From assembly GCF_001723175.1 (NCBI RefSeq), contig NC_064654.1, positions 1,736,001-1,800,000 on the forward strand: DNA of 64,000 nucleotides, given 5' to 3'. Source of the DNA: Penicillium oxalicum (Eukaryota > Ascomycota > Eurotiomycetes > Eurotiales > Aspergillaceae). A program made the position numbers and the translations under genes. Below are positions 16,545 to 44,884 of the stretch, one piece after another (within the stretch, counting starts at the first letter, position 1; every line of letters starts with the position of its first letter). The notes under the pieces were generated by a model. That model saw only the letters and a program-made list of their open reading frames with translations, was not told the origin of the DNA and did no database searches.

Positions 16545-16771
16545 TCTCAAGTGCCACGCCGCCTTGAGAATGTACAAAGGCCAAAAAAGAATGAGCAAAG
16601 ACGAATTATGAATGGCGCCGTCTCGATCGGATTATATGGTTCTCTGGGGTAGATCGAAACTCCGCCAAAACGCCGACGACGACACCGCTCGGGGTGGGGC
16701 CCGAAGCCGAGGTCGACGGGCGACTCCAATTGTGTAATCATCCTGCAGCTCAAGACAACTCTGTCGCAAAC

Positions 16772-18080: not shown

Positions 18081-20240
18081 TTATTTTTCCACAACTCCAA
18101 CGCGTTCAGGTTCCGCCTGCGGGAGTTGCACAGCGTCTTCTTTCTTTTTCCCCTTGACACTTTTCACCTCAATGCAGAGAGCACACACCAGCGAAGCACA
18201 AGCCACGGCCACAGCGCTATAGAGCACCTTGATGACCGCGTCATTGTAGGCTTGCAATAGCTGTTCCTTTGAGGCCGGGCCGAGGAGTTGGATGAGCCCA
18301 GTGAGACCCTGTTTGTTGATCTCTTGCGTGGTGATACTTGGATCAATTGGACGAATGGAATGAACGAGCTGCGTCAGGTAGATATTCTGGCCAACGGCCA
18401 TGGACACAATACCCCCGATCGTGAACGAAAATACCACGAGGACAATTCCACCCGTGATTGATTCAGTCGGCAGCACAGTTTGGATTGCAATATACGGGGC
18501 TTGCCAGCCAATGCCACAGCCAACTCCATAGATTGCTTGATATGCAGCCCATTTGACTGTGGAAGTCTCCAAAGTGAGGGTGGTCAATAGCCCGGTGCCC
18601 ACAGACAGCAGACAGCTGCCAAGGATCAGAGCGGGTGTATAGTATCCGATCCATGAGGTAAAAGACCCCGAGAGGAAAAGGGCAAGCGAGAGACCGATCA
18701 CCATGGGTAATGTTGAGACACCGGAGGCTATTATGGAATCAGTCGTCTGCTGTGCCAGCTATTGCACCGAGACTCACCTAAAGGGGTCTTTTCTCGTGCC
18801 GTTTGAAACCACAGAGGAATCTGTATCGGGTCAGCGTCTCATTGTGCAGAATGAGATAAAGGCGTGAGATCGGAACCAAAACTCACATAATAGGCGATAA
18901 TGTACAGACTAGCGGCCATGAAGCCCGAGTACAATATACAGCCTGCTGTGGTTCGCGAAAGGAGCAACTTGAGATCCAGTGTCGCCTTGTCACCTCGCCA
19001 AAGCTCACACGCGATGAAAGCTCCAGCCAGACCGGCAGCGAGAAGAAGTGGAAGAAGCACACGAAAGTTGGACCAGTTGTAAAATGTCCCCGCCCATTCC
19101 AGCGCCAGAATGAGACAGATGATCGTTGGCACGAGAAGTGCGGCGCCGACAGGGTCACATTCGGCCAGTTTCTCCGAGAGACTGAGTCCTGCTTTAGTTG
19201 GTCTTTGGACGTCTTTGAAGAGAAGCAGAACCAGGACCAGACTGAGCACCGCAATGGGGATCGTCACATAGAAGCAAGCTCTCCATCCTCCGTATTCCGC
19301 CAGAACACCTCCAATGAGGGGTCCAGCACAGATAGCCACGCATTCTGCCATCCCCACAACGCCTTGCCAAAATGGTCGTCTTTCGAGAGAGCATATGCGA
19401 GACACTAATCTGGAATCGTCGTCTTAGTTTAGCGCACCGTGAGCAAGAAACGGGCTCACATCACACCGCGAATCGTCTTACATGTTCATGCCCGAGAGAA
19501 TACCGGCACTGGCCAATCCGGTGATGGCGCGTCCGATGATAAATGTCACAGACGTATGTGCCACGGTGCATATGACTGAGCCAACCAAGAAGATTCCTAA
19601 CATGATGGCAAATATGGCCTTGAATGGGTACAGATCATAGACCTTGCCCAGGCTCAGAACGGAGGCGGCCGATGTCATTAAACTGGGACATGATTAGCAG
19701 CATATCGGAAAGACGAGTGGACCAACCTTAGCAAAGGTCGGCACATTGAGAGCCAGGAAATGGTAGACTTACTATGCTGAACTGTACCATACCAAGTCTC
19801 CTGTAGCCTGAAAGTCTTCCACCAGCACGGGAATGATTGTCGCGACACAATTACTGTCCTTCAAAATTCCATTGTCAATTCTTTTTCTCGGCCAGGCAAG
19901 CAATCCCAGACGCTCTGCGTGCAAGACTGAGGTCACTTACATATCCCACTAGAAACGCCGCGGAGCCGGCACTGATCATCATGATTGCAAAACGCCATGA
20001 TTGAGGATAGACTGGCGTTTCCTCCTCGTTGGACGTCGGAATCTCCGTCACCTCATCTGCAGTTGAGGCTTGAGGAGGTTGAGTTTTCTCTCCGGTTGTG
20101 TCCTGAAGATGCGCACTGCGTTCCCTCGTGTTATCTGAACTCGTAGAATCCGGGAGGTTAATGTCTCTAGACATTTTCTCGTCTTCCAAAAAGGGTGGAC
20201 TCTCCAGACTGGACTGGCGATTCTCCAGATGAAAAACCAC
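18081..20240 (-). CDS. MFS efflux transporter of the DHA2 (14-TM) drug/toxin exporter type
   Basis: Six exons (20240-19941, 19858-19773, 19682-19482, 19409-18887, 18820-18778, 18727-18081) keep phase at every junction and give 599 residues from the first ATG, or 577 from the inner ATG at 20174 (MSRDINLP). A ~80-residue hydrophilic N-terminus precedes the first membrane helix. Family marks are VATIIPVLVEDF with VWYSSAYLM (motif D1 region), GRAITGLASAGILSG (motif C-like), ERRPFWQGVVG, GPLIGGVLAEYGGWRACFY and IYGVGCGIGWQAP. DHA2 carriers export drugs and secondary metabolites across the plasma membrane by proton antiport. Its place next to the peptide synthetase suggests it exports that product; this is inference from context. 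The tail ends in a Lys-rich cytosolic stretch. One exon is only 43 nt. Confidence 0.92.
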
Positions 20241-21799
20241 TGGTCAAAATCAGGAGTCTCAGGGAGCCTAGTCGAATAGCGTAAAACAGAAAAGCAACGC
20301 TGGCAGGGATTAGCATGATGACCTAATTCAAAGCAGTGCTCATCAAGAGTCTTCCGACAAGTGCGTATTCTCCAAACATGTTCCCAGCTCCACTATTGTA
20401 CAAGATGGGGCAAATCAACTGTGGACTGTAGCACGACTTCCAGGTCAAGCTCTTCTAAGCAGAGGGCCGAGAGCCACCTTGAAGATCCTCGATCCGAGGC
20501 CATGCTGACACGACCGCGTCCTCGGGGCTGATGAGGCGATTTTCTGTAGCTAGGATTGATCTGCCTACTAGTCCTTTTCCGATTACCTGGGAATGCACTA
20601 GGCACAAGCGGTTCAATATTGCAAAGTCCTCTTGAGAAAGAACCTGAAAAGACAGCAGCTTTAGCCCGTTCATGGACCTGATACATCCGATAGGTATGGT
20701 GGCGGTACCAAGAGTTGTCAATTGGCGAAAAGCTTATCGTCAACCTCGGAATATTCGTGCTGAATAATCCAATCTCGTAGAGACTATCGTCCTACAGCCG
20801 CCCTACAGCCCTCTGAGCAGAACTTGCTTGTCAGGTTGGTGGGCACTCGCCGCCCTTCAGGCACCGGTGGATGGACGGAGCCTCCCGTGCGCGGGCGGGC
20901 ACGTCCAGCCGGGCCGCCCGCCTGCCGGTGGCTGAGTAATCCACCGCCATCCATGGCCCCAGTTCTAAGGCCTGAGGCCGAGACGGTCAAGGACCCGCCT
21001 CGCCTTAGTTCCAGTTGATTGAGCCAGTGGAAGCTGGAGGCTCTCCAGTAACTCGCTGCGGCGGACACCACTAACCGCTTTCAACAAGAGCGCCCAACAT
21101 GGTATGGGAGCTTGCACATCTAACGTGGAGAACCAGTTTAGTGTAGAATTTTTGTGAAAGACCGGGAGATTGATCTTGTGCAACGATACGGAGCATCGCG
21201 ACAGTGCCCCACAAGGACACCCGAAACTGAACCGGCCACCAACGCGTCGAAGGCATGAGGCGGATGTGAATACTACGGTAGATCTGGGCACGCGATTGAG
21301 GCCATTTGCATTCGCAAGCCGAGTCATCTTGTCTTTGTCCCCTATACCAGTCCTGCGTGCTGAGCGAAGGGTCATGATAAACCCACGAGATGGGCAAGTA
21401 GGGGAAGGTTGCGACTGACCAAGCGCAGAGCACGTCAATTACAGAGACGCATCCAGGCCGCGAAAATGGACAGCGGCGGCCTGCTTCAGTATGGGGTCTT
21501 CTTGGTCAGAAGAGTTGCTTAGTAGGTATGTGGCAATTTGATCCAGTAGCTGACGAAGAGCTCTTACTATGATATCAAACAGTATCACTTGTCCAGTATC
21601 AGCACCACTAGAAATTAAATACAGGCTTATAATCATGGCCATATTATAATGATCCGTTGAGCACGTTGACAATTGAGCCTTCTCGAAAATTTACTTTTTT
21701 TTTTGATCTCACCAGACCAAGTTTCAATCCATCTGTTGCTGGTTTTGTGTCAAGTCGAGGATACTACCACAGTAATTGACGAACAGCCATCTCTTCACG
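20241..21799. other. Gene-poor gap between MFS and NRPS genes
   Basis: This 1.56-kb region would hold the promoters of both divergent genes but is long for that. Minus-strand frames (20455-20721, 20784-21071, 21071-21433, 21439-21672) shift repeatedly and none carries a domain I recognise. They may be remnants of a decayed gene, or chance. A GC-rich patch lies at about 20830-21010. Two near-tandem copies of CCTACAGCC sit at about 20792-20812. Confidence 0.4.
20891..20921. repeat. GC-rich inverted repeat
   Basis: Perfect 8-bp arms, GCGGGCGG (20891-20898) and CCGCCCGC (20914-20921), flank a 15-base GC-rich loop, inside a patch far richer in GC than its surroundings. It could form a strong hairpin. 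Function unknown. Confidence 0.6.
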
Positions 21800-23740
21800 A
21801 TGCCTGGCAACCAAGTGCAACCCGAACCACCCTTGGTTGAGGATTGCGTGCACCATGCATTTTGTCGCCAAGTCAGACAAAGGCCAGATGCAACAGCGAT
21901 CGCCTCTCATGACACTTCACTCTCATATCAACAACTGGACGATTATACGGACCGAGTCGCATGGGCGCTTCAAGCACGCGGCGTGGGCCCCGAAGTGGTG
22001 GTACTACTCTGTTTCGAAAAGTCCGCATGGGCCATTGTCGCCATGCTCGCCGTGATGAAAGCCGGCGGTGTTTGTGCCAATGTCAGCCCGAACTATCCAA
22101 TCGAACGAATAAACAGGATTGTTGAGCAAAGCGAGGCATCGCTCATGTTGTCCAATGTGATTAATGAGAAATTGCGGAGTGTTTGTGGGATTGAATTGTT
22201 CGAAATTACCGAAGCCACGGTGACCGCGTTGTCTGCCCCTTCTTCACAACTGATCGACACCATAACTCCACAAAATGCCGCGTACATTCTCTTCACATCT
22301 GGCAGTACCGGCGAGCCAAAGGGCATAGTAGTCGAGCATGGTTCGCTCTGCACCAGTGCTGCGGCTCACGGGTCAAAATGGGGAATCAACTACGGGACCC
22401 GAGTCTTTCAATTTGCGTCTTATACATTTGGTAAGAAGTCTTAGGAATTTGAAGCGAGATCAGAGACAGAGACTAATCCAGCCAAATACACCACAGATGT
22501 GAGCGTTGCCGACATTTTCTTCTCTTTGATGCGAGGCGCATGCATTTGTGTGCCTTCAGAATCCGAGCGACTCGAGAATCTGACTGGCTCCTTGACGCGC
22601 CTCCAAGCCAACTGGGCCTTTTTAACCCCATCTGTTGCTGCAATGGTGAAGCCGGCATTAACTCCATCCCTCCGGACCTTGCTGCTAGGAGGTGAAGCAC
22701 CTACACATCAAAACATCCAGACGTGGGCTGAGGCCGTAGACTTGATTGTCTGCACTGGGCCGGCAGAATGCTCAATTTACTGCATGGGTAGTCCCCCCTG
22801 CAGCAAGGACTCAGATCCTGCAAACGTGGGATTTCCAATTGGAGGACGTCTTTGGGTGACGGACCCTGACGATCCAACGGTCCTAGTTGCACCGGGACAA
22901 ATTGGAGAGCTTGTGATTGAGGGTCGCATTGTGTCAAGAGGCTACCTGAAGAACCCGACGGCCACAGAAAGATCCTTTCTCAGTGAGCCGGCCTGGCTGC
23001 CCAAGGAGGGAGAGCAGCGTCCCCGTCGTGTGTATCGCACAGGCGATCTAATAAGACAGAACCCCGATGGATCATACAACTTCATCGGGCGTTCAGACAA
23101 TCAGGTCAAGATCCGCGGACAGCGCGTGGAGCTGAGTGAAATTGAAAATTCGATCATGCAAGCATCGGCTGCGCTTTCCCTCACAAAGGTCGTGTACATT
23201 GGCAGATCCTCTGATAGGGTGCGGGACGCCCTCGTGGCCTTCCTTGAATTTAAAGATGGCCATACACATCACACCGATTCATCTGCTGCCAGATCTACAG
23301 AGGAGGAAATCATTGCAATTGAAAAAAGTGTGGCTGCATCATTGCCTGATTATATGGTTCCGAATCACTTTCTGCCGTTGACGCAGCTTCCACTCACGCT
23401 CAATGGAAAGGCTGATATGAGGTCTTTACGTCAGCTCTTCAATGAGCACGAATTGAGACAAATAGAGATGGCAAAGTGTCGAAACGCCTCCTCCAAGAGC
23501 AACTTGTCATCAAATGAGATGACTTTGCGCCGCCTATGGTCCCATGTTCTGAACCTTGATGAGGAATTTATCACGCCTGACAGCGACTTTGTACGCCTCG
23601 GCGGCAGCTCACTGAGTGCCATGGAACTCGTCAGCGCTGCTCGCGCTGAAAGGCTTGACTTATCATTTTCATTGGTCATGCAATCCTCCAAACTCAGCAA
23701 CATGGCTGCGGCATGCGCTGAGAATGCGACTTCATCCGAG
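21800..23740 (+). other. NRPS module 1: A1-T1 (initiation)
   Basis: A1 has core A3 FTSGSTGEPKG, A7 YRTGD, A8 KIRGQRVE and A10 NGKAD, so it should be active. The A5 core, usually NxYGPTE, reads VCTGPAE. Hand alignment to GrsA PheA gives pocket residues D-V-A-F-L-G-C-I-Y-K (approximate). T1 carries LGGSSLSA with its phosphopantetheine Ser at about residue 581 (Ser-Ser in place of Asp-Ser). There is no C domain ahead, so this module starts the chain. Confidence 0.85.
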
Positions 23741-26700
23741 GCGGGCGATTCCATTGGAACTGATGGTTCCAGTGGCTGGTCAGGAACTCCTTCTGAGACA
23801 GACTCTGACATTTCAAGTATCACGCCTGCACCTTTTACCATGATAGGAAACGAAAATCTCAGAGAAATTGTCGCCGAAGCAGCCAGAGTCTGTCATGTTG
23901 CCCCCGGCCAAATCCTGGACCTCTACCCCGCCACACCTTTGCAAGAAGATCTGATAGCTGTGAGCCAGACTTCACGAGACAATTACATCTCCACATACCA
24001 GATGCAAGTTCAGCCTGGTACAGGGTTGTCACGAATGAAGCAAGCTTGGGAGCAGGTCTATCAAGAACTGGAAATTCTAAGGACCCGTTTGCTATATTCG
24101 TCTCAGAAAGATCTGGCGCTTCAAGCTGTAATTGATGAGAAGGTGGTCTGGAAGACAGAACGGAAGATTGGCGCATCTCTCGAGGTTTCCTACGGGACTC
24201 CACTCTCGCAGCTGACCGTCACAGAAACAGACGGAAGAGCTTGCATCATTTGGGACGTTCACCACAGTCTCATCGATGGGATTTCTGTGTCTCTGATCTT
24301 CAATCGGCTTGCTGTGATCTACGAAAATCCTTCAGCCCCATCAAATCTTGTTCCCTTCAAAAGCTTCATCACTCACCAATCTTCACTTCCACACAAGGAG
24401 GCAAAGGCTTGGTGGACAGGCTTCCTCGAGGGTGCGCCAATCTCAGATTGGCCTCGGGACACAGGGTCTGATTCAGCGGTGATTCGAGCTCTCGCCCCTT
24501 TAAGCAACGCTGATCGGTCCTTTACGCTCGCGACATACCTGAAGCTGGCATGGGCTCTCCTCATCGGCACCTACACAGACTCAAACGATGTAGTCTATGG
24601 TTGTACAAACTGGGGTCGTTCTTCCTCGATGCGAGACGTTCTCTCTGTCGTTGGGCCGACTATTACGACCGTCCCATTCCGCGTTCAATTTGGTGATGAA
24701 TGCACCATCGCTGATGCTTTGTGTGCGATTCAGTCTGATTCAATCACAATGGCTGCACATGATCATATCGGACTACTCGGCATACGAAGATCCAGCCCGG
24801 CTCTGGGGGAGGCCAGCCGATTCCGTTCACTGCTTGTTATCCAGCCACCTTCGGAGACCTCGATGCTGGAATCACTTGCTCAAATCGAGAGCGCTGATGA
24901 AGACATTCAATCCTACCCACTTGTTCTTGAATGCAGAGAGCTTGAGAACCAAATAGAGATGGTTCTCAACTACCAGACTGGGTCGGTGACGCCGCGTATG
25001 GCATCGTCACTGCTTGGGCAGAACGCCCAAATTCTGAAACGCCTGCTCGCCACGAATATAGAGGCTCCCGTGGCTAGTTTTGATCCCTTTGAAATGTCAG
25101 ATCTTGGTTTGTCCCCGAACAATTCTCTACCTCAACAAAATTCAAGTGGCCATTGCATCCACGTGGAATTCCTGAAAGTGGTGCAGTCTCAGCCCAAAGC
25201 ACAAAGCGTCAACTCCGCCAACGTCTCTTGGACCTATGAGACTCTAGATCAGCTGTCTACTAATGCTGCATATGCTTTGATTGACGCGGGGATCAAATCG
25301 TCATCTATTGTGCCCATATGCTCTCCAAAATCACCCTGGGTCATCGTGACTATGTTGGCCATCCTGAAGGCCGGTGCCACATTTCTGCCTCTGGACGCTT
25401 CCAATCCTCCAGATCGCCTACAGCGTATCATTGAGCGTGTCCAGCCGACTTTGATTCTTGCACCCCCAGACCAAAGCCAGCTGTTCCAGAGCGCTGGCTA
25501 TCGTGTGATTAACCCCGAGGAGCTACCGACACTCACAGCACGAGCTTCGCAGCAAATTCTCCCAGAAGTTCCTCCCCACTCGAGGGCGTACATCATGTTC
25601 ACTTCAGGATCTACTGGAGAGCCGAAAGGCGTTGAAGTTGATCATTCTGCATACTGTGCCGGCGCTTTGGCACGGGCGCCTCATATCGAGAGAGTCTTAG
25701 GTTCTCGTGTGTACCAATTCGCATCTTACGGATTCGATACCAGCATCGAAGACATCCTGACAACTTTGATCACTGGAGGATGTGTCTGTGTACCAAGTGA
25801 GAGTGAACGTCGAGATGACCTGAGTGGCTCATTTTTACGCCTCGGAGCTAATTGCCTGGACATTACGCCATCTCTTGAAAGCACACTGGAGCCGTCCAAG
25901 TTTCCCAATCTTCGGACTTTGATCCTTGGAGGAGAAGCGCTTAATTCGTCACTATCAGCGAAATGGGTGAACACGAACGTCAAGCTGATTAACACTTACG
26001 GTCCCACCGAGACAGCCATTGTCACTAGTGTCAAGAATCCCATTGATACTTCTGGTGAAATCAATGATATTGGCTTTTTGCCTTGCGGCAGAGCATGGGT
26101 TGTGCATCCGCGCAATCATCAATTTCTTCTGCCCCGAGGCGCCGTTGGTGAACTTCTCGTTGAAGGTCCAAACCTGGCTCGTGGCTATTTCTGCGACGTT
26201 GAGCAAACGGCGCGCGCATTCGTTTCAAATTTGAAATGGGCACCTGAGAAATCACGATTTTACAAAACTGGTGACCTTGTCCGGTTCTCGAACGATAGCG
26301 AGAATCTGATTTTCGTGGGGCGAAAAGATGCGCAGGTGAAGATTCGAGGCCAGCGAGTCGAGCTTCTTGAGGTTGCTTCGCATGTGAAGAATGCTAGTGG
26401 CGCATTTGATGTTGTGACTGAGTTTGTGAGTCTCGCAGAGCAACCGCCAGTCTTGGTTGCATTTTTGTGTTTCGAGCAGTCGATCGGCACCTTCTCAATG
26501 CTGCCGATTGCCAAGTCCATCTTCAAGGTCATTCAGGATTGTGAGCAAACTCTGAAGGATAAGATTCCAAGCTACATGGTTCCGGCGGTATACATTCCCG
26601 TCACACGGATTCCAACAACTCGCTCCGGAAAAGTTGACCGCGCAATCTTGCGAAACGCGTTGAAAGAATTGAAGCCAGATCAAATTCAAGAATATCGTCT

Positions 26701-29700
26701 ACAAGATGTTCAGAATGACAACGGAGAACCACTTGATACCGCTGAAGAGGTTCTTTTGGCGAGGCTTTGGGCTACAGTTCTTCATGTTGACGAATCGTCT
26801 CTTCAGAAAAACACGAATTTCTTCCGGACAGGTGGAGACTCCCTGACGGCCATGCGTCTTTCAGCCTTAGCTCGAGAGAACGGTGTCTCGCTGGTGGTTT
26901 CAGAAGTTTTCCAACGTCCTCTACTTGCAGAGATGGCGCTTTATCTTATTTCTGACGACAAGGGACAGCAGTCCAAACAGATTTCACCGTTTAGTCTTCT
27001 GCCACCTAATGCGTCGGTATCTGATATCTTGGAGAGGAATTGGACAAGCATCGATGCCGCTGATGTCGAGGATATCTACCCTTGTACTCCGACACAAGAA
27101 AGCATGATGGCTCTCAGTGCGAAGCAGCCTGGCGCATATGTTGCGAAGTTCGAGTACCTTTTGCAGGATCACGTTGAAACTGAGAAGCTCAAATCGGCTT
27201 TAGAACGTGTGGTGCACACAAACCCAATCTTGCGAACGATGATTCTCTCGGACATGAATCTCGGGTCTATTCAAGTTGTCCTAAACTCGTCGTCTTTCTC
27301 AAAAACAGACAATACTCAGTCACGACCAACTATGACATACGGCTCGCCTTTGTTTCAATTTGAGGTCGTCGAAGGACCACGCAAATCATTAACGCTTTTG
27401 GTCCACCACGCTCTATTTGACGGCTTCAGCCTAGCACAGATTCAGCAGCAGGTGTGCGACTTTTACATGTCTCGCCAGTCCTCACCCGATGTCCCCTCGT
27501 TTGCGTCTTTTGTGGCCTTCATATTGCAGTCTGACAAGAACAAAGAGTCGTCATACTGGAAAGCCCAACTCGCAGGGAGTCCATCCACGGATTTCTTTGT
27601 CCAAGCTCCACGTCAGACTCAAGGACGTAGAGAAGAGAAGACCCAACATATTCTTACACTCCCTCTCAATCAGTCGAATGTCACGAAGGACCTTGGAATC
27701 ACGCTCCCCATTATTCTTCGCGCCGCGTGGGCTTTGACTATCAGCACATTCACCTTTTCGGAAGACATCGTCTTCAATGAAATGCTCTCTGGCAGGAACG
27801 CTTCTTTCGATGGAATATGGTCTCTGAATGGCCCAACCGCAACAACTGTGCCTCTGCGTTGTCAGATTGATAAAAGCTGGACTGTTCAAACTTTCCTGGA
27901 ATCTCTAAGGAAGCAAGCCACGGAAATGATTCCCTACGAGCAGTCTGGAATGCAAAATATCGAGAAATATGTGTCGATGACCCTCAATACCTCAAGCATT
28001 CTGGTCATTCAACCGGAAGAATCGGAGTCTTCACAATTCGACTCCATAATCGTTGAATCGGTGCTGCAGTCAACTGAGGCTCAAACTTCTGGTTACTATA
28101 CCAACGAACTTGTCCTTGATGCAAAGATGACCACGGAGGGGGTTATTTTTGAAGCAGTTTTCGACAGTAATCAAATTCCAACGAAGGTTATGGATTCTAT
28201 CCTAGCAACATTTGCGACTCTCACCCAGCAAATGTTCAATGTGGAGCCGGAAACCCGTCTCTCGGATTTGAAGATGGGCGCAGAGACTCGCCAGCAGCAA
28301 TCTAGTGGGCTTGATCAACGGAAGAGATCTGATCATACTTACACTGAAGCCTCTATATCGGACATGATCGTCCGGAAAGAGATCTCTACGATGCGAAAGG
28401 CAGCTGTTGTTTCCTCCGATGGATCATTGACCTACGCGGAATTGGACAGAAAAAGCTCTACTTTGGCCCTCTATCTTCAATCACTGAATCTTCAGGGCGA
28501 CACGATTGTGATTCCTCTCTTTTTCGAAAAGTCGATCGATGCCATCATTGCCATCGTGGCTGTCCTGCGAGCTGGATACGCTTATGCTGCTCTAGATCCT
28601 ACTCATCCCGACAACCGTCTCCAAGATATGGTGCAACAAGTCAAGGCACATGTTTGCCTTTCGTCCAAATCACTAAGCAAAAGAATTTCCGGTATGACGG
28701 AAAAGTTGCTTGTGATTGAGGATTCTTTCTTGGATTCGCTTGAAAGCCCCGAACGGCAGCCTAAAAGCATGGACCGACCTGGAATTAGCCCTAATAATCC
28801 TGCTGTCATTGTCTTCACATCAGGAAGTACTGGCCGGCCAAAAGCTATTGTTCTTTCTCATGGCGCCATCACCTCCCACGCCAAAACCTTTGGCCCTTCT
28901 CTGAGTATTGAGAGTGAAAGCCGAGTGCTCTGTAATGCAGCATGGGCATTTGGTAAGACTCCAAGCTCCACCTTCATTTGAAACTTCTCAATCCTTACTT
29001 CTCGTACAGACATTCATGCTTTCGAAATTCTGGTCACCCTGATATCCGGGGGAACATTATTCGTCACGGACCAAGATCGCTCTCATCTCACCGAGCTCAT
29101 CAACCTTTGGCAAATCAACTGGCTTTTCTCGACCCCATCTGCCCTCCAAACCCTCGATGGCCCTACCTCTGTACCAAATTTGAAGACAATTGTGATGGTT
29201 GGAGAGCTCCCCTCCAAAGAGATTTATGAAAGGTGGTCGGGTAAACACTTGACCTTGATCAATGGCTACGGGCCTGCAGAGAATACCTTCTTCTCTACCA
29301 TGGCGGTTGTTCAAAATGGTCATCAGGATCCGAGAAATATTGGATTCCCAGTCAATACGCTCGTTTGGATCACAGATCCGGGCCACCCGCAGATCCTTCT
29401 GCCAATGGGTGCAGTTGGAGAGCTGGTGCTTGGAGGACAACAGTTGGCCAAAGGCTATCTCTACAATGAGTCTGCAACGAAGAAAGCCTTCGTAAATTCC
29501 CCTTCTAGCTTGGCAGGAGTCTATGATGGAATTGTTTACAGAACTGGTGATCTATGCCAGATGAACCCCGACGGAAGTCTTCGAATCTTGGGTCGTGCGG
29601 ACTCTCAAGTCAAACTTCGTGGTCAACGGCTCGAGACCGCGGAGGTTGAACATCACCTGCTCAAGGCTCTGAATCAGGAAGTCGCTGTGGATGTCGTCAC

Positions 29701-32700: not shown

Positions 32701-35192
32701 TGACCGGAGAACTTTTGTTGGAGGGTCCTATGCTGGCTACCGGATATTTGAAAGAGCCGGAAAAGACTGCTGCTGCTTTCGTTGAAGCACCCCGCTGGGC
32801 TTCAGCTTTTGGAGCTACAGGTCCATTTTACAAGACCGGCGATCTCTGTTTCTACAATGCAGACGGGACGATGAGTTACGTCGGTAGAAAAGATGCCACC
32901 GTGAAAATCCGTGGGCAAAGACTGGATCTGGCTGAAGTCGAAGTGGCCATTGGCAAAGTGACGGATGGCACGCTCAATGTCGCTGCTGAAATCGTCCAAT
33001 TTAAGGATCGCAAGGAGAACTTCCTCGTTGCTTTCTGCTCTGGATCCGACCTCATGGATGATACTCTCTGTATAGAGCCTGATTTCACAGAAAACGTTCG
33101 TGCTCAGCTTCAAGACCTTCTCCCTTCCTACATGCTGCCCACACTCTTCTTTGGTGTGCGCAAGATTCCTCTCACTTTGTCCGGAAAAAGAGATCGCAAG
33201 TCACTCCGTGAGATGGTGTCCGGTCTCAGCCTCACTGAAATAACGAATCAGAGGAATGGAGACCAGATAAGGAAAGTGGAGGGCAAGATTGAGCTTGCTA
33301 TTCAGCGAGCCTGGGCAGATGTGCTTGAAATCGATGCGGATTTGATCAATGCATCCGACAACTTCATTCAGCTTGGAGGCAACTCCATCGATGCCATGAA
33401 GATGGTCTTTGCTCTAAGAGCAAAAGGAGTTTCCATCACTGTGGCTCAGATCTTTCGCTGCAAAGACCTTTCCGAAATGGCTGCTCTTTGTCAATCCGAA
33501 GGCAGTGTTGAAGATGTGCTTCCCGCTACGGTTCCTCAAAAATCTACGGCGAAGCCGGTCAGCCTTCCGTCGGAGATATCCCATTTGATCACTGCAAGCC
33601 TCAATATCTCTGCTGATCAGATCGAAGCTGTTTGTGAGGCCGGAGACTTCCAGGCCTACTGCTACTATTTCGGTACGATGAAATCTCGCGGAACGTCGCA
33701 CTACTCCAGCATACGCTTTGCAAAGGGAGTGTCTGCCAAACGCTTGCGGACGGCATTCTCTCAACTCGTGAATCGGAATCCGATTCTACGCACAGCTTTC
33801 TTGCCCCATAAGAACTCAATTCTTCAGGTGGTTTGCAAAACATGGGATGTTGCCATTGAAGACATTTCCAACGTGGCTGATGGTGAAGTCCATCTCAAGG
33901 AATGGATCTCTAATGATTTGGCAAAAGAAAGCACCTTAAGCAGTCGCTGCACCCGAGGCGCAATCCTGCAGTGCGTGGATGGGTCCAGTGAATTTGTTTT
34001 CCAACACTCACATGCGCGAAAGGATGCGTGGACGGATAACATCCTGTTCAGTGATCTCCAGTCAATTTACAATGATATTGACGTCCCCATTCGATCGAGT
34101 TACTACCAGCTGTGTCAACACCTTCAAAACAAAGATCGCATGGCAACAGCCGCTTACTGGCAGAACCTACTACGCGGATCTCAGATGACTCAGCTTGTGA
34201 CAGCTTCCGGTCCTTCTTACGCCAACATTGTGAACGTCACTCTGCAAACTACTTCCATGTTCGGAGATATCGCATCCTCGGGAATCACCACTGCGACTGT
34301 GCTGAAGACCGCATGGGCCCTAGTACTTGCCGAATTTACGCAAAAAGAAGATGTGGTATTTGGCCATCTGACATCTGGCAGAACACTATCCTGGCCTGAT
34401 ATCGAGCATGTCGTTGGACCCTGTCTGAACATTATCCCTGTTCGTTTCCGCGTATCTAACGATAAAACGCTGGACCTCCTCCGCGATATGCAGAATCAAC
34501 ATACAGACAGTCTGGAACACGAATGGTTGGGAGAGCGAGAAATTGTGGGTCACTGCACAGATTGGGCGCCTTCAACTCGCTTTAGCTCTGTGGTTCAGTA
34601 TCAAAATGTGGACGAGGTGCATTCCATGCAAGCAAATGGGGAGTCGTGGGACGTGCACCTGCATGGGGTAGACTGGGATTCCACAGACATTTGGATCCTG
34701 GCGTATCCCGAAAATGACACCGTCCAGATCACTCTGTGCTTCTCTCCAAAGCGAGTTCCACAACTGATCGCGGAGAGCATGCTAGAGCGTCTGCGGTCAA
34801 TGTTTGAGATCCTTGCAAACACCGACAATCAGAAATCGCCGCTGACGCTTGTCAGAGAGCCCGCACGGCTTCCTCTTCCTCCGGCAGAGATTCCGTCCAG
34901 CTCTCCAAACGGCGTCGCCAACGCTGTAGGAGTTACGGATGTGGCATTGAGTGGCATTGATCCTCTGGTCGAGCAGACGTGGAGCTTCTTATGGGATGCT
35001 GCTTCAACACCATCATCTACTTCTCTCAAGAACGCGGACTTGCCATACTACCAGCTCAGTTACCTCCCCTGGACAGCAAGTACTTTGGCATTTGCGTACC
35101 AGCGTCATGGGATTGATATCTCCACGGAAGATATCATCGACCACCCAACTATGAATGCGCAGTCTGTCTTGTTGTCACAATTACGTGATTAA
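21800..35192 (+). CDS. Four-module nonribosomal peptide synthetase, A-T-(C-A-T)x3-C-T*
   Basis: Exons 21800-22430, 22497-28952, 29010-32234 and 32299-35192 give 4401 residues; the ATG at 21800 (MPGNQVQ) is the only good start. The protein starts directly with an adenylation domain, has four A and four carrier (T) domains, four C domains, and ends in a degenerate carrier-like tail. No epimerase, methyltransferase, thioesterase or reductase domain is visible, so a linear tetrapeptidyl chain of unmodified stereochemistry is expected unless a C domain is dual-function. Release is probably by the last C domain, as fungal C-terminal C domains cyclise peptides. All three introns interrupt A domains at the same codon; A2 has none. 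It is flanked by an MFS exporter (divergent) and an acyltransferase (convergent), as in a secondary-metabolite cluster. The product is not identifiable from sequence. The modules are described in separate entries. Confidence 0.95.
23850..26960 (+). other. NRPS module 2: C1-A2-T2
   Basis: C1 begins DLYPATPLQ and has an intact active site HHSLIDG (about residue 800). A2 is intron-free, with FTSGSTGEPKG, NTYGPTE, YKTGD, KIRGQRVE and SGKVDR. Pocket by hand alignment: D-T-E-D-I-G-T-I-V-K, clearly unlike modules 1 and 4. T2 reads TGGDSLTA (first Leu replaced by Thr), Ser near residue 1658. Confidence 0.85.
27050..30220 (+). other. NRPS module 3: C2-A3-T3
   Basis: C2 begins DIYPCTPTQ and has HHALFDG (about residue 1849). 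A3 is split by intron 2 and shows FTSGSTGRPKA, NGYGPAE, YRTGD, KLRGQRLE and SDKLDR (the Gly before the A10 Lys is Asp). Hand-aligned pocket: D-I-F-F-V-V-G-F-F-K, which looks bulky and hydrophobic. T3 has LGGNSITA, Ser near residue 2729. Confidence 0.85.
30340..33500 (+). other. NRPS module 4: C3-A4-T4
   Basis: C3 begins DLYPCTPLQ; its active site reads HHSVFDE, with the usual last Gly replaced by Glu while both His and the Asp are kept. A4, split by intron 3, shows FTSGSTGMPKG, NSFGPAE, YKTGD, KIRGQRLD and SGKRDR. Hand-aligned pocket: D-V-A-Y-I-G-S-I-W-K, close in pattern to A1. T4 has LGGNSIDA, Ser near residue 3800. Confidence 0.85.
33570..35192 (+). other. NRPS terminal C domain and degenerate carrier-like tail
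   Basis: The last C domain (C4) lacks the LYPxTPxQ start of the others and carries SHARKDA at the active site (about residues 4007-4013). This fits the SHxxxDx pattern of fungal C-terminal cyclising domains, with Gly replaced by Ala. After it, residues ~4325-4401 have carrier-like helices (PLVEQTWSFLWD, then GIDISTEDIIDHPTM), but the LGGxS loop reads LSYLP, so the phosphopantetheine Ser is missing. Confidence 0.75.
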
Positions 35193-35725: not shown

Positions 35726-37533
35726 TCATGATTCACTACCCAAATAAGCCAGCCAGTCCGAAATACCTTCGCAGAATCTCTCCGCGATGGTCTCATCCAA
35801 AGCTTCAGGCTGCCACGAAGTCGAAACCGCAAGTCCATCCGACATACTCACAATACTAAGCGTCAGTGGTGCACAATTGACCATCGCGCTCTGAGTGAAT
35901 GTCATGCGTGATACGCGCATGTGTTTCTGTGGCGAAGGCGTATTCTCAGTAGATTGATTAGGTGCCTCTCCCGTCTGTTCCAGGTCGATTCGGCCGAGGT
36001 TGGATACCTCAAACGTGAGCGGGCGCACCTGGCCAATGCATTTTGCATTCCTAAAAATGAATAGATTTAGCCATGTCTTTTTTCCCCCTTCGTTCTCTTT
36101 CTTTTCTTTTCTTTTCTTTTCTTTTATTTGAAAGGCTGGTATGCATGAAATGAGTGGAATACGTGACTTACGCAGCGTGGCGATCAGTGTACCGCCCTAG
36201 AGTCGCCAGTCCATTGTTGACCGGCACTTGAGCAAGTTCCTTGGTCAACTGTTCGCGATGAAATTTCGCAATCTTCCATAAGAGAGCAGTTTCGTCGCTT
36301 TTGTTTCCACTCGAGTTTTTAAACGCCGAGATCCAGGTCTTCTGGTAGAGACAGCCGCTATCACCTGTCTGATTCACGATATCCTTGACGGGGTCACTTC
36401 CGGTCCACTTCCTGAGTGAATATGGGGAATGGCCGAAAAAACTGTGTGGGGGAACTAGCTTGGCTAAGACCGCGACGGCTATCGCTTGGAAAAGACTCGT
36501 GGGAGTGATATGATTCTCTTTGCATCGAGTCAGCAAACGCTGCAGGTCTGACTGTTCGATCCGGCTGAGACGAGTTCGACTTTGATAATTGGAAACGCAG
36601 TCCTGGGTGACTGGGTTGCCTGTCCATGGGTTCTGTGTGAAGCTCATAAGTTAGTCTTTGTGTATAGGAAAGAAAGAAAGAAAGAAACGTAATCCGAATG
36701 CAGACACAGCCATTGCGCGACATACCTCGGCGAAAGGATTGCGAAGCCAAGCAGGACGAATTGCACCCCAAAGGTTGTGAGCGTGGAATCCCCAAGTCGT
36801 GGGTATTCCCATCAGATCCTCTACCGGAGGCGGCAACTTCACTGAGGGAGGAACTTTCACGAGAGATTCTTGAACGGGCGCGTTTTTGAAGAAATTAATC
36901 TTTTTCTCTGAATTCAATGCACGGAGAAGTTCTCGATGGAAGACCATTCCGCCCTGACCGTCCATGAAAGCATGGTGAGCGGCCAAAATCACAAATACCT
37001 GATTCGTGTGCCCGGCGTGGCCCAGCAATATCACCTTCCATCCGGGCATCTCATGCAAACGAGTCCATTTCTTCGAATGCAGACCATCCAGCGTCTGGAG
37101 AAGAGCAGACTCAAGATTCTCATTTGTGTCGACTGTTGAGAATTCTATCAATTGGTCCAGGTCCAGCGACTCGAGACGAACAAAAGTGGGATGTTGGCCG
37201 TCCTCTCCTACCACACCACTGCAAAGCGCGCCGTGGTTCAGAACAAACGATGAAATGGCAGACACCATCAGCTGTTCCCACTCCGAAGATGACAATTCAA
37301 GTCCATCTTGGAGCTTGTACAGCGCTGAAAGGCAGAAACATGGGTAGAATCCAGAGTAATGATTGGCGTTATAGATCCGCTCCCTGTATGATATGGAAGT
37401 AAGCGTATGGGACTACAGAAGAAATGAGAATTGTCTCATCAAAAAGGGTAACCGGATGTGTGTTATTTTTCTTTCTGATAACTCATACTTACAAGGTCCC
37501 TGCCTCTCTCAGGATGTTGTCTTTCTTCTCCAT
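35726..37533 (-). CDS. Alcohol acetyltransferase-like (AATase/condensation-fold) acyltransferase
   Basis: Four exons (37533-37493, 37383-36726, 36632-36172, 36050-35726) keep phase and give 494 residues. The first exon (MEKKDNILREAGT) is short and joins LERIYNANHYSGFY. The catalytic motif HHAFMDGQGG (HHxxxDG) lies near residue 150, in the fold shared by alcohol acetyltransferases and NRPS C domains. The C-terminal half has the family's variable channel region and a conserved NLGRIDL stretch. Such enzymes move acetyl or longer acyl groups from CoA to hydroxyl or amino groups. It lies tail to tail with the synthetase, 533 bp away, so it may acylate the peptide or a precursor; that is inference. 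No PTS or signal peptide is seen. Introns hold pentanucleotide and tetranucleotide microsatellites. Confidence 0.85.
36101..36125. repeat. (CTTTT)n microsatellite in an intron
   Basis: Five uninterrupted CTTTT units plus imperfect flanks, inside intron 3 of the acyltransferase gene. Confidence 0.85.
36668..36687. repeat. (GAAA)n microsatellite in an intron
   Basis: About five tandem GAAA units inside intron 2 of the acyltransferase gene (36633-36725). Confidence 0.8.
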
Positions 37534-38554: not shown

Positions 38555-40272
38555 ATGCCGGGCCACGCAGTGCACCAGAAAGGGCACTACATTGACCCGA
38601 TCGACTCAAACGGGTCAGGACATCTGGCGCCGCAAAAAAACATCGGGCTCCTTCCTGTCAAGCGGAAACCAGTAGAGCCGCGAAACCCAGATGGTTTTGA
38701 CGGGTATCCGGCACTCTCAAACTATTCGAAAAGCCAGAAAAAAGATGAAGAATGTGACCTTGGCTCCAGCATCTCAGTCGCGAGACTATGGAATGATATC
38801 ATGGAAACAGCCAAATTTGGACAAATGGCAGACTGCCCAGAGGGAATGTACCGGATTGCGCTGAGTAAGGAAGATCAGATGGTCCGAGACTGGTTCAAGA
38901 ACGAGGCCCAATCTCTGGGCTGTGAGGTCCGCGTAGACCAAGTTGGGAACATATTCGCGGTGCTTCCTGGCGCTTGTCGGGACATTCCCCCGATTGGAAT
39001 CGGTAGTCATCTGGATACGCAACCGGCAGGTACTCATTCCCCCAAATCCTCCTACTGATCAGCTTCTGGCATCTGACTTTGGAGACAGGCGGTCGATTCG
39101 ACGGTATCCTAGGCGTTCTCAGTGGGTTGGAGATCCTGCGCACCATCAAGGACTCGGGTCGGCAAATGTACGCCGATGTAGCAGTCATCAACTGGACCAA
39201 TGAGTATGTCTTCCGGCATCATGAGGCCAATCTCGATGGGAATCCATCTAACTGGAGCAATATAGGGAGGGAGCTGGATACCAGTCCGGGTGTACCGGAT
39301 CGGCCGTCTGGTCCGGCCATGTCACCAAGGAAACGGCTCTCAATATGCTTCGGGCTGACCGTCAAGGCACCTTTGGATCTGATCTGTTGGCGATTGACTA
39401 CCAAGGCAGTGTCCCCGCCAGCCATGTCCACAACGGCCTTTCCGCCCATTTTGAGCTTCACATCGAACAAGGTAAACGGTTGGAAGCAAAGCGACAGACA
39501 GTGGGCGTCGTCACAAATATACAGGGCATTCGATGGTACAAGGTGGATGTTCGAGGTCGGCGGGCTCACGCAGGATCTACCCCATGAAGGACCGCGTGGA
39601 CGCCTTGGTCGCCGCGTCGGAGATGGTGTGCTTCCTCAACGGAATCGCCCGAGAGTACGACATGTTCGCCACCGTCGGTGTGCTCGAGGTGGAGAAAGCA
39701 AGTTCAAATATCGTGGCGGACAATGTTCGCTTCACCGTAGATCTGCGACACCGGTCCGAAGACCTTCTCTGCCGCGTGGAGAGTGAGCTCAAGGCACGCA
39801 TGAAAGAATTGACTCGAACATACGGCCCTGCGCTTCAATTTGACATGCATCAAGTCTGGCATAGCCCTGCGGCAGAGTTCGATCAGTCCATTGTCGAGAT
39901 CGTCCGCCGAGCAGCCATCACGACGGTGGGTGAGTCTCAGGTCATGCCCAAAATGATTTCATTTGCGGGACATGACAGTGCCTTGGTTCATCTGACCGGG
40001 ATTCCGACGGCCATGATCTTCGTCCCCAGCCACGAAGGTGTCAGTCATGCACCTGAAGAGTTTACTGAGCGGGAGCATTGGTAAGTGGAAATATCTCTCT
40101 TTCTCTTTCTGACCCCCCTTCCCTCTTCCAATTCCGGCTTATCGAGTGCCTTTCTAACGTGATCGGCTTCAGTGGCGCTGGCGCTGCGGCTCTCTATCGG
40201 GCCGTCTGTCTGTATGATGATCGTCTGCGAGCATCATCGCAAAAGCACAAAGTGGAACCAGAGGCACGCTGA
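38555..40272 (+). pseudogene. M20-family amidase (hydantoinase/N-carbamoyl-amino-acid hydrolase type), broken by a 1-base frameshift
   Basis: Exons 38555-39029, 39089-39203, 39266-40080 and 40173-40272 sum to 1505 nt, one short of 502 codons. Metal-site blocks are present: GSHLDTQPAGGRFDGILGV across intron 1, NWTNEEGA across intron 2, HAGSTP, FAGHDSALV and SHEGVSHAPEEF. HAGSTP and the obligatory next residues MKDRVDAL lie in different frames: the run ACCCC before ATG (about 39578-39583) is one base short, giving TGA at 39585-39587. It is either a recent null allele or a C-run base-calling error. Family members hydrolyse N-carbamoyl-amino acids, ureidopropionate or allantoate derivatives. The ~80-residue N-terminal extension and the altered sequence after NEEGA (GYQSGCTG) are unusual. 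Confidence 0.8.
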
Positions 40273-41443: not shown

Positions 41444-43426
41444 ATGACAAGCCATCGAGGACATAAGCTCGACGTGAGCTTAGAGGCTCTGGCCGACCTT
41501 CAAGTTCCAGGCGACATTTCCATCTCACCGGACGGCACTCGGCTTGTCTATTCGCTGCAGGCCTACAGCAAGAAAGGTGAACACGCCACATCTTCCATCT
41601 GGATCGCTCAGATCGGCGTGGAGAACAGCAGTCGCCAACTCACGTCGGGTCTTTTTCATGATGAGCAGCCCCACTGGTCCCCGGCAGGAGGAATCATTGC
41701 CTTCAAGTCAGACCGACATCGACCCGGGCAATCCTCCGCCATCTACCTGTTGTCTATCGACGGCGGTGGTGAAGCATACGCTGTGACACCAGCGGAAGCA
41801 GAGAAGCCCATCGTGGCTTTCCAATGGAATGCTACCGGTACGGAAATTGCGTTCACCAGCGCTGATGAAAAAACCGACGAACAAGCCGCGAGGGAGAAAG
41901 CAAAGGACGACCCTACAGTCTGGGGTCTGCATCTCGAATACCACCGCTTGAGGATTGTCAATGTGGCCAGTAGGCAAGTGAAGACTATCGTCAGTGGACG
42001 AAAACACGTACACGATTTTACCTGGAGCCCAGATGCACAAGTCATCTGCTTTGTTGCCCATGAGGATCCAGATATCAATTCCCCTTGGCTTCATGGTGCA
42101 ACTGTTTCTTTTGTACAGCCATCTGGGAAAGAGTTGCACAAAACGGCCCACTTTCCTGGATTAATCAGTCAGCTCCGGTGGGGACATGAGGGTGTCTATT
42201 TCATCGCTGGTCATGTCCCAGAACATATTCTGACTTCACTGTCATTGTATAAACTTGACTTGGAAGCGTGTACATACACAGAGCATCAAGACGGTGATGA
42301 GCGCCACTGTTGTATCACGATTCGCAATAGTCGTTCTTGCCTGTCGTATCGTGTTCAGAGATCCCTGGCAGACGAGTTCTACTTGATTGACGGCGGCGCC
42401 CATATGCTTGTATTCCACGACAAGTGTGAGATGATCGCTTTCGACCTCATCAAGACACCAGACAACGGGACGGTCCTTGCGATGACCAAGGGCGATGGCT
42501 CCCATCCCGAAGAAATCTACTCCATTTCTGAGCCCGCGGGTTTGGTCAGGCTTTCCGCCCACAACTCCTCCATCGCCGCTCTGGGAATATCAAGGTCGTG
42601 GTCATTTTCAACTCACGCAGCTGATGAGTACTCGCTTGATGGAATGATGTATGTCCCTTCGACATACGATGTTGCAGATGGACCATTGCCCACAATTCTG
42701 ATTCCTCACGGAGGACCGTACTGGCGGATCACGACCGGCTTTGCTGTGTGCCACTGCCTCGAAGCGCCGGTGCTGGTCTCTCAGGGCTATGCCGTGCTTT
42801 GTCCCAACTATCGCGGCGGGAGTAGTCGAGGGGAGGAGCATGCGGCATACGCTCATGGAGGGGTTGGAACGGTCGACTACACAGATTGTATCGACGTACT
42901 TCGCCACGCTATCGACAAGGGCTGGGTCGACCCGTCCCGAGTGGTAATCGGCGGATGGTCACAAGGGGGTTTCTTATCCTACTTTGCTGCCACGCGCGCG
43001 GATTTTCAATTCCGAGGAGCCATATGTGGAGCAGGAATCTCGGAATGGACCTCTATGGCCATGAGAAGTGACGCATTTCGAATGCAAGCGGAGTTGGTCG
43101 GTGGTGCTCCGTGGGATGTACAGAAGACGAGGTCCGGTGCCACCAGCCCCCAGGGAGAGCCATGGCAGAAGACCGCGGACAGTCGAAACGCGAGCGCGTT
43201 GTGGCACATGCGTCACGCAAAGACTCCTGTTCTGATCCTTCATGGTGAGAATGACGTTCGGGTACCCGTCGAGCAAGCTATCGCGTTCTATCGCGCCTGT
43301 CTCCAGAATGGTGTGCTGGTCGACATGGTCACGTATCCGAGAGAAGGTCACTTTATCAGTGAGAGAAGACATTTGGTCGACATGTGGACTCGGATGAGAG
43401 ACTTTTGCAAACTCCATTTGCAGTGA
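41444..43426 (+). CDS. S9-family serine peptidase (acylaminoacyl-peptidase / DPP-like)
   Basis: A single exon gives 660 residues from the ATG at 41444 (MTSHRGHKLD); the frame runs open upstream, but that part looks like leader. The N-terminal ~400 residues form a beta-propeller with TolB/WD-like repeats (DISISPDGTRLVYSL, PHWSPAGGIIAFKSD, HDFTWSPDAQVICF). The C-terminal alpha/beta-hydrolase has nucleophile Ser506 in GGWSQGG, Asp604 in GENDVRV and His636 in GHF, the full S9 triad in order. LIPHGGPYW and NYRGGSSRGEEH are typical oxyanion-region blocks. There is no signal peptide, so it is cytosolic, closer to acylaminoacyl-peptidases (S9C) than to secreted DPP-V. It lies next to the synthetase cluster, so it might trim a peptide or protect the host; that is only inference. 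Confidence 0.92.
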   Translation: MTSHRGHKLDVSLEALADLQVPGDISISPDGTRLVYSLQAYSKKGEHATSSIWIAQIGVENSSRQLTSGLFHDEQPHWSPAGGIIAFKSDRHRPGQSSAIYLLSIDGGGEAYAVTPAEAEKPIVAFQWNATGTEIAFTSADEKTDEQAAREKAKDDPTVWGLHLEYHRLRIVNVASRQVKTIVSGRKHVHDFTWSPDAQVICFVAHEDPDINSPWLHGATVSFVQPSGKELHKTAHFPGLISQLRWGHEGVYFIAGHVPEHILTSLSLYKLDLEACTYTEHQDGDERHCCITIRNSRSCLSYRVQRSLADEFYLIDGGAHMLVFHDKCEMIAFDLIKTPDNGTVLAMTKGDGSHPEEIYSISEPAGLVRLSAHNSSIAALGISRSWSFSTHAADEYSLDGMMYVPSTYDVADGPLPTILIPHGGPYWRITTGFAVCHCLEAPVLVSQGYAVLCPNYRGGSSRGEEHAAYAHGGVGTVDYTDCIDVLRHAIDKGWVDPSRVVIGGWSQGGFLSYFAATRADFQFRGAICGAGISEWTSMAMRSDAFRMQAELVGGAPWDVQKTRSGATSPQGEPWQKTADSRNASALWHMRHAKTPVLILHGENDVRVPVEQAIAFYRACLQNGVLVDMVTYPREGHFISERRHLVDMWTRMRDFCKLHLQ

Positions 43427-43921
43427 TACGGAGGGGGAGAGAGCGGGAGTCTGGAGAGGAATTAGTAGATGCCCTGCTGGATTACACGAAGCTTACTCAT
43501 ATTTAGGTACCTAGGGTTGTGAAGATACGCGATACCGCAAGATGCGCCGAGGGCCACTTCAATGATGGACCTACTTACTGGTGCTCGCATTGTAGCAGCA
43601 GTTTCGCCGGCTCGGTGCAAAGTGCCGTCTAATGAACGGTCCCGTGATCTCTCGCAATAGTTTTAATATCCAGGCGCCACCATTTGCATTGCCAAGCCTT
43701 CAGATCTCGTATTCATTCATCGTTTCGTCGTGAAAGATCCCTCGTTAAGTATGCACATGATAGTTTTGTATCTACATAGAGATTTCATGGCCGCGCCCTG
43801 TTTCACCCACTATTATGCGTGTGTTTTTCCAGGCATTCAACTGGTCGTACACGGACTTCCCAGACCAGGATCGCACGGCTTGCGGGTCATGACCCGCATC
43901 ATGGACCACATCGCCGCATTC
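43427..43921. other. Intergenic between convergent S9 peptidase and bZIP genes
   Basis: 3' flanks only; no gene supported. Confidence 0.5.
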
Positions 43922-44884
43922 TCAGGTCATCATTTTCGAGGGTTGCGACGTCAGCAGTGCACTCAGAGCATTTGCATTCCCCAGCTGAGCCGCAATTTCT
44001 AGCGCGGTGTACCCGTCCGGGGCGCGCACCGAACCGTCCGCACCGCGGTCGAGGAGAAGGCGAATCAAGTCGGCGCTACCCAAGGATGATGCATGCATGA
44101 GAGCGGTGCGTCCATTGGTGTCGATTGAATTCACATCAAAGCCGTGTTCCAGCAGGATCTCCACACACTTGCTATTGCCAGACGCAGTGGCCAGGTGAAG
44201 CGCATTGGTGGCATTGCCGGCATTGCCGGCTTGTGTACACCTAGTGAACATGGGATGCGGTACCATTGCACTCGTGTCTTCTTTGGCATCCAAACTCGAT
44301 CCGGAAAGGGTGTGAAAATTCTCTGGGAGTTGAGACAATGAGCTCACGTCACTCCCCAGACCGGCTGATAATTGTAGCCTTGACAGCTCATCTACCGTCG
44401 ACGTCGAGTCGAGGCTGGAGTAACCCTTGAGATCCCCGTGGGGTAAGAAGTTGGCTTCCAGAATCATGGAACCTAGCTCGCCATCCTGGTCCCATTGTAT
44501 TGATTGGTTGCTGGAGAGGTCATCCCTGCTGTTGCTCTGCGACTGGGAGGGTTGCGTGGATTGTTCTGCGAAGGCAAGGTTGATCTGTTGGCGCAAGGAC
44601 TCGTTCTCACGCTCGAGCTCGGCGATCCTGGACTTCATATTGCTTCCTACGTGAGCGATCATACATCGGACTCAGTAAGCGTTCACATTGCTTTTTCTTT
44701 CTCTTTTTTTTTTGACACGTTTCTTCTTCATGTTTTTTTTCTCCCCCTCGCTTCTCCTTCTTCTTTTGTATTTTGCGTCTCACTTTCGGTGATTGATAGA
44801 TCGAATCGGGTGGGTAAACGTACGGTATGAACGTTGTGCAGTTCTATTCTGCTCTCGCCTCTTCTCGGTCATCTGACGAGCCAT
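43922..44884 (-). CDS. bZIP transcription factor with C-terminal ankyrin repeats
   Basis: Two exons, 44884-44824 and 44646-43922, give 261 residues. The intron (177 bp, purine-rich on the coding strand) splits an Arg codon inside the basic region, joining REQNRTAQRSYR to SNMKSRIAELERENESLRQQI. The basic motif NxxAQRxYR and the leucine-zipper start are thus complete only after splicing. The last ~100 residues hold about three ankyrin repeats (TNALHLATASGNSKCVEILLE, NGRTALMHASSLGSADLIRLLL, GYTALEIAAQLGNANALSALL). bZIP-ankyrin proteins are a fungal class that often sits in or near secondary-metabolite clusters as local activators. That makes it the best candidate regulator of the synthetase locus, by position and class only. 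The start is set at MARQMTEKRR. Confidence 0.88.

Follow-up and report, generated by a model that had tools for sequence, protein, structure and literature searches.

Gene Content and Borders of the Predicted Cluster

What does the large synthetase gene at this Penicillium oxalicum locus produce, and which of the genes around it belong to the same pathway? We addressed this question in a window of 64,000 nucleotides (the whole stretch of DNA that was analysed), in which the predicted cluster runs from 18081, by the gene models the final base of the exporter stop codon, to 44884, the A of the regulator ATG. The coordinates and gene content of the original prediction were correct, with small corrections only (splice models, Pfam domains), and the genes are as follows.

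16772..17608, + strand: riboflavin-synthase-like gene (lumazine-binding), left flank, outside the cluster (gene model; PF00677, 4.2e-36)
18081..20174, - strand: MFS exporter (DHA2/TRI12-like), 577 aa, six exons (20174-19941, 19858-19773, 19682-19482, 19409-18887, 18820-18778, 18727-18081)
21800..35192, + strand: four-module NRPS, 4401 aa, four exons (21800-22430, 22497-28952, 29010-32234, 32299-35192), (A-T-C)x4 followed by a C-terminal tail that lacks a carrier serine
35726..37533, - strand: AATase-fold (condensation-like) acyltransferase, 494 aa, four exons (37533-37493, 37383-36726, 36632-36172, 36050-35726); PF07247, 9.6e-15
38555..40272, + strand: M20 hydantoinase/carbamoylase-family amidase; PF01546, 1.4e-20, and TIGR01879, 2.6e-73, both scored on a 439-aa model that omits the stretch at the frame break and the last exon
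41444..43426, + strand: S9 peptidase (dipeptidyl-peptidase V-like), 660 aa; PF00326, 2.7e-40
43922..44884, - strand: bANK-type regulator (ankyrin repeats behind a basic region), 261 aa, exons 44884-44824 and 44646-43922; ankyrin Pfam matches
46878..48268, - strand: Brix-domain (ssf1-like) gene, right flank, outside the cluster (gene model; PF04427, 3e-37)

The flanking genes had been called rib5, ssf1 and rrp3. Domain searches found a lumazine-binding domain on the left and, on the right, a Brix domain with a DEAD helicase beyond it; it is these domains that were checked, and the gene names remain those of the prediction. The claimed immediate return to conserved genes on both sides did not hold on the right, where approximately 2 kb without a gene model separates the regulator from the Brix gene. 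Between the flanking genes, gene models and domain searches recognised no gene for a fatty acid synthase, an aminotransferase or a racemase.

The exporter gene is divergent from the NRPS gene, and its matches to MFS_1 (6.3e-34) and TRI12 (2.2e-10) agree with the DHA2 exporter first proposed. The PF07247 match likewise supports an AATase-like acyltransferase, and this protein retains an HHAFMDG motif; a PDB search with it returned no credible match. The amidase does carry a Peptidase_M20 domain, but its reading frame is disrupted near 39585 in the GCF_001723175.1 assembly, which weakens its claim to cluster membership. The Peptidase_S9 domain was also found as predicted, but membership of this gene is weakened because relatives occur in many Penicillium and Aspergillus species (among the best 120 of 295 matches). 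Judged by sequence, the S9 peptidase is probably not cluster-specific, and the M20 and S9 proteins are probably bystanders or accessory.

Modules of the Synthetase and Its Terminal Condensation Domain

Removal of three introns (66, 57 and 64 bp) gives a single open frame from 21800 to 35192 that encodes the predicted 4401 residues, and the four-module layout was confirmed by Pfam, which, run on the protein of P. oxalicum 114-2, finds four AMP-binding, four Condensation and four PP-binding stretches. That protein, PDE_02610, is the product of the same gene; it is equal in length, differs at 8 of 4401 residues and is public as a 'hypothetical protein'. Two parts of the synthetase bear directly on its product.

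25157..26665, + strand: A2 domain, specificity code DTEDIGTIV; A-domain matches
33501..34880, + strand: stretch with the terminal C domain, C_T type, motif SHARKDA at residue 4008; best solved match TqaA (3.2e-41, 145 bits)

The HHxxxD motif is intact in C1-C3 and reads SHxxxD in C4, and the carrier serine is intact in T1-T4; with complete A-T-C modules in line, the protein has the make-up of a C_T-released fungal NRPS. Its N-terminus is the A1 domain, and a motif scan found no starter C domain and no motif for an epimerase or a methyltransferase; the epimerase motif is absent from the window synthetase (1 of 1) and from both of the two orthologues scanned. As read by motif offsets, the A2 code is identical across three of three orthologues, and the A4 code is the same in P. 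oxalicum and Macrophomina. Because of the acidic pair in the A2 code, which we take to mark a Lys/Orn-type substrate class, the predicted pocket of module 2 suggests a basic residue.

When C4 was compared with solved structures, the C_T domain of TqaA (PDB 5dlk, 5dij, 5egf, 5ejd) came first at 145 bits, and the next chain, from surfactin synthetase, scored 87 bits. In the controls C1-C3, TqaA scores 47-50 bits, under their own bacterial best of 63-80, so that the terminal C domain is both TqaA C_T-like and distinct from the internal C domains (145 versus 47-50 bits). The likeness is confined to the domain, TqaA being another enzyme with another product. Macrocyclisation by C_T domains in fungi is cited in the portion of PMC10512319 available. 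The serine-less tail behind C4 was considered as a special feature and rejected: a post-C tail of 55-140 aa is present in 59 of 121 sequences, the window's own included, and a regular expression for the carrier-serine motif matched 0 of these 59, so such a tail is ordinary. A single-sequence fold of the tail (97 residues) has a mean pLDDT of 57.

Predicted Product

With complete modules and a cyclising-type terminal C domain, the original prediction of an uncharacterised four-module NRPS for a small cyclic peptide is the most likely reading. It is probable, on sequence grounds, that this P. oxalicum secondary-metabolite cluster encodes a synthetase whose product, assembled from four amino acids, is released as a cyclic tetrapeptide closed head to tail. 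Amino acids would be loaded in order by modules 1-4, residue 2 would be basic (Lys/Orn-like), the C_T domain would close the ring, the divergent MFS protein would export the product, and the bANK protein would be the switch that turns the cluster genes on. The suggestion that the peptide is acylated stands in part. Lipopeptide-type acylation is weakened because the protein starts with A1, and N-terminal acylation was rejected for want of a starter C domain; side-chain or O-acylation alone remains likely, and the AATase-like protein, if active at all, would modify an amine or hydroxyl group of a side chain. Ring strain in all-L cyclic tetrapeptides makes the missing epimerase awkward for the cyclic tetrapeptide reading. 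Violaceotide A of A. violaceofuscus was rejected as the product: it bears an N-methyl group according to the abstract and text excerpts, and the synthetase has no methyltransferase motif.

Regulator and Promoter Motifs

The regulator had been called a bZIP-ankyrin protein. Ankyrin repeats do lie behind a basic region (recognised by eye and by alignment), but sequence reading gives at most two leucine-zipper heptads and no bZIP Pfam match was obtained at E<=0.001; a basic region without a full zipper followed by ankyrin repeats is the bANK type. The basic region and the splice are backed by a P. coprophilum protein. The gene is located approximately 8.7 kb from the NRPS gene with three genes between them, and is not adjacent to it.

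At E<=1e-10, the regulator has 17 matches, of which, besides one at 99%, only four are close relatives. Exon 1 is missing from three gene models of such relatives, which suggests that further bANK regulators sit in databases under the name 'ankyrin'.

No promoter motif common to the cluster genes was found among the ToxE box, the Apf2 box and shared promoter words. The ToxE box occurs five times in the window against 2.93 expected and is absent from the four cluster promoter stretches, and the Apf2 box occurs three times against 2.67 expected, with one copy (45887-45894) upstream of the regulator. TTASTAA has four sites in the window, two of them within cluster promoters, which are too few to carry meaning.

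Relatives in Other Fungi and Alternative Readings

The synthetase has a relative in A. uvarum (62% identity) and one in Macrophomina (43%); outside this three-species group, the relatives listed (best 120 of 775) are 28-33% identical. Macrophomina is not among the named organisms in the 17 bANK matches at E<=1e-10. These distributions bear on an alternative that we consider possible, though clearly the weaker reading, namely that the biosynthetic cluster is the divergent MFS-NRPS pair alone, perhaps with the AATase gene, and that the M20, S9 and bANK genes are an older neighbourhood controlling something else. Many named species have an S9 relative and no NRPS orthologue listed (best 120 of 295 S9 and 120 of 775 NRPS matches). 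In P. coprophilum, relatives of bANK (44%) and S9 (60%) are both on contigs of 6,099,455 bp and no NRPS orthologue is among the best 120 of 775 synthetase matches, and the regulator may therefore go with the S9 gene instead of the NRPS gene. The broken M20 frame and the lack of a common promoter motif point the same way. Against this, the A. uvarum relatives of the NRPS and of the bANK regulator are both on contigs of 1,051,428 bp, and a bANK gene beside a four-module NRPS gene is a pairing reported, in the excerpts available, from other fungi.

A separate doubt concerns the product itself. The synthetase might, like some fungal NRPSs, be iterative or yield a peptide that is linear, reduced or dimeric. 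Domain order may mislead, HcpA being non-linear (PMC4041764, in excerpt), and the linear octapeptide fusaoctaxin A is made by synthetases under a bANK-like regulator (PMC6389888, in excerpt); however, all modules here are complete and in order, and the final domain is of the C_T kind, with no reductase, and we regard such a product as unlikely. Similarly speculative is an extension of the cyclic tetrapeptide reading: the sequences could represent a third lineage, within Eurotiomycetes (Penicillium, Aspergillus), of four-module synthetases under bANK control, making an epimerase-free cyclic tetrapeptide whose basic Lys/Orn side chain is acylated by the AATase-like enzyme encoded nearby. If so, the scattered occurrence of these sequences in P. 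oxalicum, A. uvarum and Macrophomina would imply transfer among distantly related fungi.

Comparison with Known Systems

As P. oxalicum is used industrially to produce enzymes, an unassigned peptide pathway in it is relevant to both product safety and discovery. If the link between regulator and synthetase is true, the pairing of bANK and four-module synthetase extends to Eurotiomycetes, and deletion of the regulator would be a simple handle for finding the product. The literature searched gave no mention of locus tags PDE_02608-02613, and no title or abstract among the matches listed reports such a gene set, in keeping with the original prediction, which knew of no described cluster with this set of partners.

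Among the nearest described systems are the HC-toxin/apicidin clusters (HTS1-TOXE, APS1-APS2, APF1-APF2), which, in the excerpts available, combine a four-module NRPS, a bANK regulator and an MFS exporter. The window has all three, with the bANK gene near the NRPS gene, and a member of this family (TOX2/APS) would make a cyclic tetrapeptide that contains a long aliphatic amino acid. Two defining features fail, however: the epimerase domain that these synthetases carry after module 1 has no counterpart motif here, and the genes for fatty acid synthase and aminotransferase, like one for a racemase, were not recognised between the flanks. In addition, P0151 of P. vulpinum, at 28% identity, is the only one of the best 120 of 775 relatives, many of them without a name, to bear the HC-toxin synthetase name. 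We therefore rejected membership, which is very improbable. The HcpA/fungisporin synthetase of P. chrysogenum is likewise a Penicillium NRPS for cyclic tetrapeptides, but, as described in the same excerpt (PMC4041764), it has 6064 aa, two E domains and a non-linear order and ends in C-PCP, whereas the window synthetase has 4401 aa, is linear and without an E motif, and ends in C followed by a carrier-like tail; identity with HcpA was rejected, since neither the two E domains nor the misplaced A4 is present. Overall, the gene group is a fresh example of a familiar sort of cluster, and not a new sort of system.

Organization and distribution of the synthetase

The window corresponds to G000:C5:1736001-1800000 in a genome of 30.77 Mb and 17 contigs, and the core gene of the cluster was modelled as follows.

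21800-35192, + strand, synthetase, single gene, 4401 aa, three introns of 66, 57 and 64 bp

PDE_02610 of Penicillium oxalicum 114-2 matched the encoded protein at all but 8 of 4401 residues (99% identity), which places the window in P. oxalicum or a strain very near it. Pfam recovered A, C and T stretches, four of each, and motif reading gave the order A-T-C x4 with A first, confirming the four-module synthetase of the original prediction. The carrier serine was kept in all four T domains, and C1 to C4 carried the signatures HHSLIDG, HHALFDG, HHSVFDE and SHARKDA, respectively. A motif scan, which also returned chance matches, found no epimerase or methyltransferase motif in the synthetase or in either orthologue. 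Residues 4310-4401, after the last C domain, form a carrier-like tail without the serine; a tail of 55-140 aa was present there in 59 of 121 sequences, and 0 of the 59 had the carrier-serine motif. In A1, A3 and A4, the introns (22431-22496, 28953-29009 and 32235-32298) all interrupt, in phase 1, the codon for Asp in the FD motif, and A2 has none. Pairwise likeness among the A domains was only 32-38%, and the introns may represent either an old common intron or parallel gains.

The synthetase search gave 775 matches, of which the best 120 are described here. Outside P. oxalicum, two relatives stood apart among these listed matches (A. uvarum, 62%; Macrophomina phaseolina, 43%), the remainder showing 28-33% identity, and a last-C-domain profile run on 121 proteins (the 120 listed and the window's own) showed the same separation as a gap from 842 to 314 bits. 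The positions of A-domain codes are based on GrsA numbering; read by motif position, the codes were DVAFLGCIY (A1), DTEDIGTIV (A2), DIFFVVGFF (A3) and DVAYIGSIW (A4). The A2 code, whose Glu/Asp pair resembles codes for lysine, beta-lysine and ornithine, did not differ among the three species; the A4 code was shared with Macrophomina and differed at two positions in A. uvarum, while Macrophomina departed in A3. The A. uvarum A1 code was incomplete because the gene model, which looks mis-spliced at the A1 intron, breaks there. This comparison across three orthologues suggests that they probably make related, non-identical peptides.

The terminal condensation domain and proposed ring closure

C4 matched the cyclising C_T domain of TqaA with 145 bits (E 3.2e-41), compared to 87 bits for the best non-TqaA chain. 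As controls, C1, C2 and C3 scored 50, 47 and 50 bits against TqaA, and each matched another C domain better (80, 67 and 63 bits, respectively). Macrocyclisation by C_T domains is cited in PMC10512319. Motif reading found no C domain ahead of A1, so the first residue would retain a free amine for ring closure. On these domain features, the product is probably a cyclic tetrapeptide and is unlikely to carry a fatty acyl chain at its N-terminus, which narrows the earlier suggestion of acylation to an optional side-chain or O-acylation, putatively by the AATase-fold protein.

Neighbouring genes and the regulator

The gene partners originally proposed were upheld in part. Relatives of the S9 peptidase occurred at 50-75% in many Penicillium and Aspergillus species (best 120 of 295 matches) and, because they are so widespread, this gene is not specific to the cluster. 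The M20 amidase frame was interrupted near 39585 (window 39440-39660), within the conserved AHAGSTP stretch and next to four consecutive C, and resumed in another frame; no credible splice sites were found to explain the break, which would be either a sequencing error or real decay. The MFS exporter, AATase and regulator had open frames under the splice models built here, and the AATase had one other relative in the same genome (27%). ToxE and Apf2 boxes were not enriched, and no 8-10-mer was common to all four promoter stretches compared (4906 bp in total). Elsewhere, a CoA-transferase family III gene (about 15000-16600, - strand; 5.4e-60) adjoins the riboflavin-synthase-like gene, an open frame at 2-3571 (+ strand; 1189 residues) had no Pfam match, and the same contig carries a far larger synthetase at G000:C5:65124-85925, where seven condensation-domain matches fall in an open frame of 7843 residues.

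The bANK regulator (43922-44884) has NRTAQRSYR as its basic region, together with two zipper-like heptads as well as ankyrin repeats, and a P. coprophilum protein carrying MTEKRREQNRRAQRSYRNNMKSRIEELERDN supports the splice that yields the basic region. Among 1364 candidates, 17 proteins matched at E<=1e-10: five were close (one 99%, four 49-56% in alignment) and 12 were generic ankyrin proteins. All 20 other matches in its own genome were through ankyrin repeats only. The models of three regulator relatives (P0242, P0244 and P0246) begin at exon 2, without the basic region; with such models, bANK regulators would pass for ordinary ankyrin proteins.

The A. uvarum regulator and synthetase relatives each lie on a contig of 1,051,428 bp. 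For an A. uvarum genome of ~36 Mb, chance co-placement on such a contig would be about 3%. This linkage, judged from equal contig sizes rather than a DNA reading, supports the regulator as a partner. Against it, the P. coprophilum bANK (P0245) and S9 (P0011) relatives lie on contigs of equal size (6,099,455 bp) with no P. coprophilum synthetase orthologue among the best 120 of 775 matches, and none of the 17 regulator matches was named Macrophomina.

Overall, we regard the locus as a real, uncharacterised NRPS cluster whose core gene is intact, ordinary in kind and moderately interesting for its regulator link. In the proposed working, the bANK protein would activate the genes, four amino acids would be loaded in order, the second probably basic, C4 would close the ring and the MFS protein would export the product.

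Comparison with known systems

As originally stated, no described cluster with this gene set was met in the literature searched: the neighbouring locus tags had 0 mentions in full texts lying mostly outside subscription journals, and no title or abstract among the matches listed described the cluster, which does not prove its absence from print. HcpA, as described in PMC4041764, was excluded. According to PMC4109984 and PMC3729494, bANK regulators adjoin four-module synthetases in Dothideomycetes and Sordariomycetes, and the characterised cases have a single epimerase domain along with fatty-acid genes; in PMC6389888, a bANK-like regulator governs a linear octapeptide cluster. Having no epimerase motif and no recognised fatty-acid genes, the present locus is unlike the characterised clusters described in PMC4109984 and PMC3729494, and membership of their family was rejected on these grounds, but it is like them in joining four modules with the same type of regulator.
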